From Cyclina sinensis (lineage: Eukaryota > Mollusca > Bivalvia > Venerida > Veneridae), in contig JAAONU010000016.1 of NCBI GenBank assembly GCA_012932295.1, positions 25,605,290 through 25,669,289 on the forward strand: a stretch of DNA of 64,000 nt, written 5' to 3'. A program made the translations under genes and the position numbers. The notes under the pieces were generated by a model, which was given only the letters and a program-made list of their open reading frames with translations, was not told the DNA's origin and ran no database searches. Below are positions 29,064 through 63,701 of the stretch, piece by piece. Within the stretch, counting starts at the first letter, position 1; every line of letters begins with the position of its first letter.

Positions 29064-29574
29064 AACAAGGGTAATCAGTGATCACATGTGTCGCCTGATG
29101 ATAGCCAATTAAAAGGAAGTATTGAAAGGTGATTGGACAGTTTGTAGGCTAAAACGCATTTTTTTTATTCAAGGGCCATAACTCAGTCAAAAATCTTTCA
29201 ACCGAAAAACCTGTTAGACAGATGTACCGATCAATCCTTCATAACATTTCATTTAAATTGCTTTAGAAGTACAAGAGAAGTAGTCCGGACAAACTTTAAA
29301 AATAAAGATCATTAAAGGGCCATAACTCTGACAAAATCATTGAACTAGAAAATGCTGACGATATGCAAAACTACACTTGGTACTGATCATTTCTATAAAG
29401 TTTGGATAAAATCGCACCGGTAGTTTTTGAGGAGTAGTCCGGACAAGTTTTGTGATGGACAGACAGACAGACGGACGGACAGACAGACAGGCAGATGATG
29501 AAGAAGAGATCCCAAAATTTCATGGCTACTTTGTAGCATGTCGCTGCTACTGTGAAGCCTGCAACACAAAAATC
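29064..29574 (+). mobile_element. Hairpin-ended element, GTGTCGCC family, copy 1
   Basis: Starts AACAAGGGTAATCAGTGATC followed by TGTCGCCTGATGAT, and ends near ATGTCGCTGCTAC...CAACACAAAAATC. Near the 3' end lies a GACAGACAGACGGACGGACA-type tract, as in related copies. It has no coding capacity. The 3' hairpin is partly decayed compared with the copy at 30,227-30,698. Confidence 0.7.
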
Positions 29575-29599
29575 ATTATTTTGCCAAAATGCCCTTTTC

Positions 29600-62400: not shown

Positions 62401-63701
62401 CATTGGGACAAACATCCTGACCAAGTTTCAAGACAATTGAGGCAAAAATGTGACCGCTAGAGCGTTAACGAACTAAGTGTGGACAGACGACGGACATTGA
62501 TCGATCCTAATAGCTCACCATGAGCCTACGGCTCAGGTGAGCTAAAAATCCTGCATTTTAATGCCCAAGTAGTAAAATTGAAAAAGAGTATCTATTGTTG
62601 TATATTTACATCAAAGTGCCTGGTGTCTTCAACATAGCTGTTTGTACTCAGGGCATGTATAGATGCATCAAATCTGAACAATGATACCTGAAAATTGATG
62701 ATCATTTTTATTAAAAATCAAAAACCTACAAACATGCAACAACCCCACATGTTACAGCTCCCATAGCTTTGAGGGCAAAGTCTTTGACTGGAGAGAACTT
62801 CTAAATATATTTCGACCCTAGCAGTTTTGTGAAGCCTGGTCATAAATCACAGTTATCACTACTATGATTTACCTCTTTTCCAGCTAATGGCAACTATGTT
62901 TAACTTTATGTCCAGTAGTGACACTGATCAACCTACACATCTGTGCAGTCTATGTATTTTGTATTGCCATAAAGCCAGTAAATCTTTTTTTTTTTAAATA
63001 TCTTTAAACTATAAATTGTACTATTCAGTTTGAAAGACAGGCAAGTCAAACATAGATTTTTATTGTGGGATAACAGTTAGTAATAATTCACTAAGACTTA
63101 GCTTCAGCTTTCATCTACTTGTCCCGTTTTTAAAGAGTCTTACTGGTTCATTCTTTCAATATGAAAACCCCCCCAAAAAAAGATAAAAAATACATGTAAA
63201 ATTAATTTTCTGACCTTTTTAGGTTTCTGTGGTCTCTTCTTGGCAAAGTATATTCCTATGTCCATGTTTGGTTCATCAAAGCTACTAGGTGCCTGTTGCC
63301 GAGACTTCTCTGTGTTACGTATATCTAGATACTCACTCAGTAACAGCTGTAACTGTAAACAGTACCAAATTATGAATGTTAGAGTTCACAAATTGCATGA
63401 AATTTCAATTCAGTTTAACTTTAACATTGCACAGGTTTTGAATGTTTCTTGAAGTTCTAAAAAAAAGCTGAAAGGAAAATAGAAGGTCAAAGTAATAACC
63501 TAAGAGGCTGAATCGCTAACCTGACACTATGGATCATTTGTAGTTCCTTCTGTAAACCATTTCTAATTAAAACATCTGAACAATTAGTCACTAAATTCTA
63601 CCAGAGCTAGTGATAATATCTACACCTACCACAGCTTGTATCTTTGACCAGACATCTTTCATTGTATACATGTATTCTGATCTTATATACACACCAGAAT
63701 T
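44448..63701 (-). CDS. EXOC4: Exocyst complex component 4 (SEC8), C-terminal 17 exons, with frame breaks
   Basis: Exocyst subunit that tethers secretory vesicles to the plasma membrane. Exons (minus strand, 3' end listed first): 44448-44619, 45021-45132, 47597-47692, 48125-48243, 48775-48889, 49966-49997, 50248-50339, 50643-50854, 51212-51293, 51905-52043, 53215-53288, 59529-59629, 60045-60108, 60409-60493, 62610-62687, 63215-63352, 63630-63701. Joined phases give a chain that aligns along vertebrate SEC8, e.g. SKIQAVLQLLLSEYLD, DYADQFLNMIC, LLLLHLEVRVHCFYYLMP, INENGIKKMCRNIF and QQNLTNIT. About 590 codons are present; the 5' part lies beyond 64,000. The protein ends NETV, a PDZ-ligand-type tail like vertebrate TTV. 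Oddities: one extra base near 50,727 and one near 44,513 break the frame, and exon 50248-50339 does not join the 32-nt micro-exon in phase. Gene identity is certain; whether this copy is functional is not. Confidence 0.95.
45835..47433 (+). mobile_element. Hairpin-ended element, CTCACCTGAG family, in an EXOC4 intron
   Basis: Starts AATAAGAGGGCCATGATG (a variant of AACAAG). CTCACCTGAG at 45864-45873 is inverted as CTCAGGTGAG at 47417-47426. The 3' end folds at 47395-47428 (AGCTCACC...GGTGAGCT) and is followed by AAAAA. Unit 1 has the empty site near 34,325-34,335. The interior carries irregular repeats of a CTATGTAAAATCATGTGACC-type sequence at about 150-190 bp spacing. It shares termini, but not its interior, with the element at 60,841. 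Confidence 0.85.
49178..49204. repeat. Perfect 11-bp hairpin
   Basis: ATTTACCCCGT (49178-49188) pairs with ACGGGGTAAAT (49194-49204) around a five-base loop. It sits 41 bp before the tRNA-like sequence and may be part of the same repeat. Confidence 0.8.
49246..49345 (+). mobile_element. tRNA-derived SINE head or tRNA pseudogene
   Basis: A good A box (TGGCTCAGTGG, from 49253) and a perfect B box (GGTTCGAATCC, 49305-49315) are spaced as in a tRNA with a long variable arm. The acceptor strands do not pair and the T-stem is poor, so it is not a working tRNA. A T-rich tail follows. It lies in an EXOC4 intron, on the opposite strand to the gene. Confidence 0.6.
54001..54175 (+). repeat. Five-copy 35-bp tandem array
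   Basis: TGATCATG recurs at 54001, 54036, 54071, 54106 and 54141, exactly 35 bp apart. Each unit also has ACACCCATA and a CTGTACTAAG-like end. It lies in the 6.2-kb EXOC4 intron (53289-59528). Confidence 0.95.
54402..55772 (+). mobile_element. Hairpin-ended element, TGTGTCGCC family, in an EXOC4 intron
   Basis: Starts AACTAGATGGGTGTTCGGTG. TGTGTCGCC at 54429-54437 is inverted as GGCGACACA at 55759-55767. The 3' hairpin TCGCATTTTC/GAAAAGGCGA has a TTC loop and is followed by AAAAATG. The interior contains further AACAAG starts (about 54,470 and 54,577), suggesting nested insertions, plus long G-runs and a module shared with 31,085-31,310. A GACGGACCGACGGAC tract precedes the hairpin. No open frame is credible. 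Confidence 0.75.
54754..54776 (+). repeat. Run of 23 G
   Basis: An uninterrupted G tract inside the element at 54402, with many shorter G-runs up to about 54,980. It can form G-quadruplexes, and its length is likely uncertain in any assembly. Confidence 0.9.
55776..56160 (+). repeat. 82-88 bp tandem array, about four units
   Basis: CAGGTTTCTGGCTTTG recurs at 55799, 55881, 55968 and 56056. Each unit has two related halves, both with a GGAATGCCATCCTGAATAAA-like sequence. It begins directly after the element ending at 55772. Confidence 0.9.
56161..59528 (-). other. Remainder of the large EXOC4 intron
   Basis: AT-rich intron sequence. The neighbouring exons 53215-53288 and 59529-59629 join in phase, so no exon is missing between them. 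Open frames here (56629-56844 plus, 59222-59509 minus) have no domain and I see no RNA gene. Confidence 0.7.
60841..62548 (+). mobile_element. Hairpin-ended element, CTCACCTGAG family, with 145-bp array, in an EXOC4 intron
   Basis: Starts AACAAGAGGGCCATGATGGC. GCTCACCTGAG at 60869-60879 is inverted as CTCAGGTGAGC at 62532-62542. The terminal hairpin at 62511-62544 pairs TAGCTCACC with GGTGAGCTA and GAGC with GCTC, and AAAA follows. A GTGGACAGACGACGGAC tract precedes it. Most of the interior is a ten-unit tandem array. It has no coding capacity and sits between EXOC4 exons 62610-62687 and 60409-60493. Confidence 0.88.
60950..62430 (+). repeat. 145-bp tandem array, ten units
   Basis: The anchor TGACCTAGTTTTTGA falls at 61056, 61201, 61346, 61492, 61638, 61782, 61928, 62072, 62217 and 62350: spacing 144-146 bp, except the last step of 133. 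Each unit contains TGACAAATTTCCAGGATATT, TTACCTCTAGAGTGTTAACA and AGGTTTTTCCATATTTGGGC. The final unit, with GACCAAGTTTCAAGACAATT, is the most divergent. Confidence 0.95.

Follow-up and report, generated by a model that had tools for sequence, protein, structure and literature searches.

Six repeats in the bivalve Cyclina sinensis as probable non-autonomous Helentrons with a common end layout

Known Helentron-type systems and the six elements

Helentrons, their non-autonomous derivatives (HINEs) and DINE-1 elements are described as having a subterminal inverted repeat (subTIR) near the 5' end, a second tens of bp from the 3' end and a 3' palindrome, with T-rich or TT targets and a Rep/helicase/endonuclease partner (PMC4067079). 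A similar arrangement was reported for Helitron2 elements with asymmetric terminal inverted repeats (ATIRs), where the 5' ATIR lies inside a 5' hairpin and the 3' ATIR stands above a hairpin ~20–30 bp from the 3' end (PMC3627910; Fusarium FoHeli, PMC5148889), and Chlamydomonas Helitron2 elements insert after TTTT (PMC3627910). The Cg_HINE elements of Crassostrea gigas have a 5' subTIR with a complementary inverted repeat, a GTCC/GTCY microsatellite, satellite-like central repeats and a 3' subTIR followed by a palindrome; they enter T-rich targets without duplication, and some of their families have modules in common (PMC7492417). Bivalve pearl and CvA elements are likewise modular and non-autonomous with satellite-like central repeats (PMC5139131, PMC11136912). 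Features of these kinds recur in six elements, F1 to F6, of a 64,000-nucleotide window from the venerid bivalve Cyclina sinensis (GenBank assembly GCA_012932295.1, contig JAAONU010000016.1, positions 25,605,290 to 25,669,289 of the forward strand), although Cg_HINE belongs to a different genome and is likened to them, as are pearl and CvA, by description and not by sequence.

The six elements are very probably non-autonomous Helentrons of the Helitron2 group, lying on the minus strand and presumably moved by a Helentron Rep/helicase/endonuclease encoded elsewhere in the genome. This class had been proposed in an earlier note on the stretch and is supported by the end geometry, by two empty sites free of target duplication, by internal arrays in 3/6 elements and by autonomous relatives with the same 5' layout. 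The class is a known one with a published end design, and the families are new. Look-alike repeats are thereby put into one published class with their orientation fixed, and autonomous Helentrons of the same end layout are shown in the same genome.

Copies were sought in the whole genome (903 Mb, 154 contigs), and for each element the best 40 of 3,406–12,581 candidates were scored. Copy letters were examined for F1 (n = 7), F2 (n = 11), F3, F5 and F6 (n = 5 each), while F4 was assessed from match coordinates only, its end sequences being those of the window copy. The end sequences used for matching, folding, spacing and apex analyses were representative or majority sequences chosen by eye (for the 3' end of A15, an autonomous element described below, the C5 copy). 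Copies of F1, F2, F3, F5 and F6 begin and stop as the window copies do, which upholds the start positions given earlier (39461 for F3), and 4/11 F2 copies have no recognisable 5' end (L046, L049, L050, L052). Among the F4 matches listed, only the window copy spanned the whole query; one match starts at its left end and several stop at its right. No transposase-like open reading frame (ORF) was found inside the six elements among ORFs of at least 110 aa. The elements, read as probable HINEs, and their parts are:

30227..30696, minus: F1, subTIR GTGTCGCC, from copies and folding (5' end 30696, 3' end 30227)
30663-30690, 30251-30260 and 30234-30248, minus: F1 5' hairpin, 3' subTIR and 3' palindrome
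36866..37835, minus: F2, subTIR GCTCGACTATTC, from copies and folding
37800-37831, 36891-36902 and 36873-36888, minus: F2 5' hairpin, 3' subTIR and 3' palindrome
39461..40648, minus: F3, subTIR ATGCCCCC, carrying 7.2 tandem units of 145 bp at 39522-40573
40614-40644, 39485-39492 and 39468-39482, minus: F3 5' hairpin, 3' subTIR and 3' palindrome
45835..47433, minus: F4, subTIR CTCACCTGAG, from match coordinates and folding
47395-47428, 45864-45873 and 45841-45857, minus: F4 5' hairpin, 3' subTIR and 3' palindrome
60841..62548, minus: F5, subTIR GCTCACCTGAG of the F4 group, carrying an array of 9.7 units of 145 bp at 60924-62338
62511-62544, 60869-60879 and 60847-60863, minus: F5 5' hairpin, 3' subTIR and 3' palindrome
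54402..55771, minus: F6, subTIR GTGTCGCC of the F1 group, from copies and folding
55737-55767, 54430-54440 and 54412-54427, minus: F6 5' hairpin, 3' subTIR and 3' palindrome

End architecture, orientation and insertion sites

Read on the minus strand, each element consists of a T-run, a hairpin containing the subTIR, a body, the inverted subTIR copy, a 3' palindrome and a CTTGTT-like end. In all six families, and likewise in A15, the hairpin arm begins at nt 6–8 and the 3' subTIR lies 24–29 nt from the 3' end, compared with ~38–60 bp in mite families (PMC4067079). Since the six families share the published Helitron2/Helentron/HINE layout, the hairpin that the earlier note had placed at the 3' end marks the 5' end, and its strand has to be reversed. 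The autonomous A15 agrees with this orientation, its T5 and hairpin lying 5' of the Rep ORF. ORF direction alone cannot settle orientation, because a Rep gene in the opposite direction was reported for some Helitron2-type elements (PMC4067079, PMC3627910); the end geometry settles it. The earlier description of the ends was also incomplete, as it overlooked a second palindrome, drawable in all six elements, between the subterminal motif and the AACAAG end.

The subterminal motif with its inverted copy at the opposite end, as first described, was found throughout. The longest exact inverted match within a family was 8–12 bp versus 4–6 bp between unrelated families (up to 7 with A15 included), and across the related pairs it reached 8 bp (F1/F6) and 10–11 bp (F4/F5). 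In shuffle tests this match gave p 0.04 for F3 and p at most 0.0015 for F1, F2, F5 and F6. The terminal hairpin of the earlier description stood in 5/6 families, where its folding energy against dinucleotide shuffles gave p <= 0.01, with F2 (p 0.60) as the exception. For the 3' palindrome the folding energy gave p < 0.05 in 4/6 families (F1 0.14, F4 0.16; A15 0.13), and the six families combined gave p 2e-5, where combined values assume an independence that the F1/F6 and F4/F5 pairs violate.

The A-rich finish noted earlier is present as A5 in all six window copies. Of 29 copies whose 5' end is recognisable, 21 have TTTTT there (F1 6/7, F2 6/7, F3 0/5, F5 4/5, F6 5/5), and the remaining 5' ends are T-rich (TTATT, TTTTC, TAATT, TATTT). 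CTTGT forms the 3' end of every F1, F3 and F5 copy examined. The GACGGAC/GACAGAC-type tract, previously ascribed to several elements, is clear in F1, F3, F5 and F6, but only weak in F4 and missing from F2, and internal tandem arrays of 145–162 bp occur in F3, F5 and F6.

Because the window holds a duplicated region (27.0–29.0 plus 31.5–34.5 kb versus 38.0–42.0 plus 42.7–47.6 kb), an empty paralogue was available for two of the insertions:

28420..28421, strand not assigned: empty site for F3, CAATTGAT^AAAATTAAT, in the paralogous copy of the region
34326..34327, strand not assigned: empty site for F4, CACATTAG^AAAAATTAGG, in the paralogous region

No target duplication was found at either site (two of six families), and on the element strand each target is a T-run. 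The F3 site has 4 A when empty and 5 A when occupied, and the right flank of F4 carries a 10-bp repeat (AAAAACTAGG) whose copy number is unequal between the paralogues. A 525-aa ORF at 40649-42226 (-), carboxylesterase-like by eye, directly adjoins the F3 insertion.

In the likely mechanism, a Helentron Rep/helicase/endonuclease from elsewhere in the genome would nick at the T-run 5' end, and the element strand would be displaced by rolling circle. The 3' end would be recognised when the arriving 3' subTIR pairs with the 5' arm, replacing the 5' hairpin, beside the 3' palindrome, and joining of the displaced strand to a T-rich site would leave no target duplication. A GTCC-type microsatellite and tandem repeats may be present in the element body.

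Autonomous Helentrons and the class assignment

The genome contains 104 matches to PF14214 (Rep), and the 30 Rep loci examined include a Helentron-like group and a divergent group that is probably canonical. A15, a 17,252-bp element, was delimited at both ends by comparing two copies. Its 5' end, located 5' of the Rep ORF, reads T5-GGGGCGATTGC-CTTCT-GCAATCGCACC, and its 3' end reads ...AATCGCCCC-ATCAGTACTTTCAGTGCTTTGATT in the C5 copy, where the C15 copy has AATCGCCCA. The 3' subTIR lies 24 nt from the 3' end and measures 9 bp in the C5 copy, 8 of which are kept in the C15 copy; the first 120 bp are common to 8/8 copies found. Pieces of A15 match PF14214 and PF05970, and PF03372 falls just below its cut-off (23.8 bits vs 24.5); Helitron2 is described as without an endonuclease domain in PMC4067079, whereas A15 has this sub-cut-off endonuclease match. 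A15 also matches PF20209 and PF04843 (herpes tegument N-terminal family) near its N terminus, and a separate ORF matches PF21669, an OB-fold family. At ~5,000-5,260 of locus L058, in A15 sequence without an open frame, lies a degraded stretch like the F3 145-bp repeat, which could be an old insertion or equally the source of the repeat.

In a second Rep clade, A14, four copies with unrelated flanks start with T5-GGGGAGGC-TTT-GCCTCCCC or a close variant, which delimits its 5' end. A third, A4, occurs as two 12,549-bp units joined head to tail (C4:30561567-30586668), a dimer of the kind expected from rolling-circle replication. Its unit junction is the start/stop point of copies on other contigs (C2, C1) and gives a 15-bp 5' palindrome, TTGTATTTTCTGATC-GCA-GATCAGGAAATACAA. 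The search for autonomous Rep/helicase elements with the same ends, named as a check in the earlier note, thus yielded A15 and A14 with a T5 and hairpin 5' end, but none with the window subTIRs. The oyster study could relate no autonomous element to its HINEs (PMC7492417), whereas here A15 with the same layout was delimited and a partner with the same subTIR was likewise not found. Two weak candidates for further 5' ends were rejected, one a T-run and hairpin at position 911 in the 5.8 kb upstream of the C1 (L009) Rep domain and the other at position 673 in the 4.9 kb upstream of that of C18 (L016). Near-identical copies of the C10 clade showed no clear end within 7 kb (~2 to 9 kb upstream), and an inverted pair at C15 was dropped as a pair of ends when copy comparison located the ends elsewhere.

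Several results weigh against the assignment. None of the delimited autonomous elements (A15, A14, A4) has GTGTCGCC, GCTCGACTATTC, ATGCCCCC or CTCACCTGAG as its own end, and the 5' regions searched in C1, C18 and C10 gave no acceptable end. The first 120 bp of A15 as a query returned 8 autonomous copies only and no HINE derivative, and A4 is without a 3' subTIR (longest match 6 bp), so that the layout is not universal in the genome. Folding was weak for the F2 5' hairpin and for the F1, F4 and A15 3' palindromes (p 0.13–0.16), and plain stem counts gave weaker p values both for the 5' hairpin (F1 0.21, F2 0.38, F3 0.02, F5 0.11, F6 0.01, A15 0.003) and for the 3' palindrome (F1 0.54, F2 0.11, F3 0.01, F4 0.65, F5 0.003, F6 0.02, A15 0.86). 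No further F3 copy has the full T5 (0/5), the flanks past the T-run are moderately T-rich with T as the first base after the 3' end in 17/35, and the best-scoring F4 join omits one 10-bp flank repeat unit, leaving the right joint inexact.

Two other classes were considered. Inverted repeats at both ends and the lack of an internal transposase-like ORF would suit miniature inverted-repeat transposable elements (MITEs) of the DDE type, in which the subTIRs would be the terminal inverted repeats of cut-and-paste transposons, and the bivalve pearl elements are termed MITEs in PMC5139131. The repeats are, however, asymmetric, beginning nt 6-8 from one end and 24-29 nt from the other, the two empty sites show no duplication, and A15, an autonomous Helentron from this genome, has the same end layout, which makes a MITE origin very improbable. 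Derivation from canonical Helitron1 elements, in favour of which stands the divergent, probably canonical Rep group, is hardly credible, as the ends are a T-run and CTTGTT-like sequence instead of 5'-TC and CTRR-3', the target at the two empty sites is a T-run and not A^T, and a 5' hairpin with a subTIR pair is a trait of Helitron2 and Helentrons (PMC3627910).

Hairpin apex, end pairing and module exchange

The apex TTCTTCGAA, which the earlier note had located at 31,430, 37,814 and 55,750, was found in these three places and is the complement of TTC-GAA-GAA. One of them belongs to a further element seen by this end only:

31415..31446, minus: F7, 5' terminal hairpin AGCCCCAC...GTGGGGCT with a C(GAA)G apex

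Among ten 5' hairpins (F1-F7, A15, A14, A4), eight have triloops, and all eight of these are closed by a C-G pair, compared with 74/828 triloop hairpins of the window; a GNA loop occurs in 5/8 versus 42/828. These counts take F2, F6 and F7 separately despite their common modules (counted once, C-G closure is 6/6 and GNA 3/6), the background hairpins of the window are A+T-richer than those of the elements, and the triloop given for F1 comes from the majority sequence, from which the window F1 copy differs, while the loop is different in one A14 copy. GNA loops are described as forming unusually stable mini-hairpins when two or more G-C pairs are present (PMC4686876); F5 alone among the five GNA hairpins has two G-C pairs beside the loop, and the other four have one. 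The C(GAA)G apex also appears in the printed FoHeli1 and FoHeli2 5' hairpins (PMC5148889). A literature search, whose reach mostly excluded subscription journals, returned no paper joining Helitron and triloop. Recurrence of a C-G closed triloop in the 5' hairpins is a possible new detail, and the triloop offers a concrete candidate for a feature common to the families.

For a fixed 5' arm (nt 6–15), the 3' subTIR is a better pairing partner than the opposite arm of the hairpin in 27/35 copies, an equal one in 7 and a worse one in 1, a count taken over related copies after 4 further F2 copies were dropped. The preference is seen in F1, F2, F5 and F6, and not in F3 (2 better, 3 ties, 1 worse) or F4 (1 tie). 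It was suggested that subTIR pairing dissolves the 5' hairpin and so sets the end point (PMC3627910), and the pairing bias seen in these ends is compatible with that idea. With the cost of joining the ends excluded, stability favours the hairpin over the subTIR duplex in F4, F5 and A15, and the duplex over the hairpin in F1, F2, F3 and F6. The compact C-G closed triloop hairpin on the transferred strand, often with a GNA loop like those of known DNA mini-hairpins, might act as a switch, marking the start until its 5' arm is captured, when replication ends, by the 3' subTIR that matches it better; no fixed sequence would then be needed, only a hairpin, a partner and a 3' palindrome, and subTIRs could drift to any sequence if both ends changed together. 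We consider this proposal unlikely, the more so as a single GNA hairpin of the five has the two G-C pairs required in the mini-hairpins cited and the background hairpins are A+T-richer.

The six families, described earlier as different in sequence, proved not to be independent and fall into four subTIR groups (F1/F6, F2, F3, F4/F5). F1 (30227) and F6 (54402) share GTGTCGCC, and the ends of F4 (45835) and F5 (60841) share 41 and 48 bp (88% and 83% identity) with no further match at E 1e-6. An internal module is common to F2 (36866), F6 (54402) and the F7 stretch at 30.7–31.4 kb; 177 aligned bp within F2, which include the F6 subTIR, are 93% identical to F6. This sharing among F4/F5, F1/F6 and F2/F6/F7 indicates that modules were exchanged while the end pairs stayed matched. 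Elsewhere in the genome, an F3-like 5' hairpin with non-F3 sequence gave 43 pattern matches vs 0 for the reversed pattern; many have one common apex, the nearest Rep match is ~280 kb away (by eye), and they may represent one more subfamily of HINEs that uses ATGCCCCC as its subTIR.

Whether the ends are read as sequence or as structure was weighed on these results. One Rep clade may serve each subTIR group, recognising the subTIR sequence, with the shared structure inherited; the subTIR pairs are sequence-specific and the three delimited Rep clades differ in their 5' ends, yet no Rep clade was found with any window subTIR, and we give this reading an even chance. Alternatively, one shared Helentron machinery might read only the T-run, the 5' hairpin, the pairing of arm and subTIR and the 3' palindrome, whatever the subTIR sequence. 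An identical geometry in all six elements and A15 despite differing subTIRs, the recurrent C-G closed triloops and the end-point proposal of PMC3627910 speak for such a machinery, but otherwise different elements share subTIR groups (F1/F6, F4/F5), as would follow from recognition by sequence, and the end sequence differs between A15, A14 and A4; we consider it unlikely. The common machine reading structure and not sequence, as put forward in the earlier note, therefore stays conjectural, with no autonomous element found that carries the window subTIRs. The family-specific subTIR match fits the sequence-blind end pairing suggested in PMC3627910 as well as it fits one Rep per subTIR. The question becomes testable because the subTIR arm, the 3' subTIR and the hairpin apex can each be changed separately.

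Some smaller features accompany the elements. In the F2 copies L049 and L050 the outer half of the 5' hairpin is missing and its inverted copy sits just past the 3' end, as if transferred. Tandem arrays lie beside F6 at 55772-56156 (41-bp period) and 53998-54172 (35-bp period). An older copy of F1 was also present:

29064..29560, minus, end approximate (by eye): older F1 copy with a degraded 5' end, 83% identical to F1 over the first 405 bp

The stretch 49241-49330, which carries GGTTCGAATCC, resembles by eye a tRNA-derived short interspersed nuclear element.

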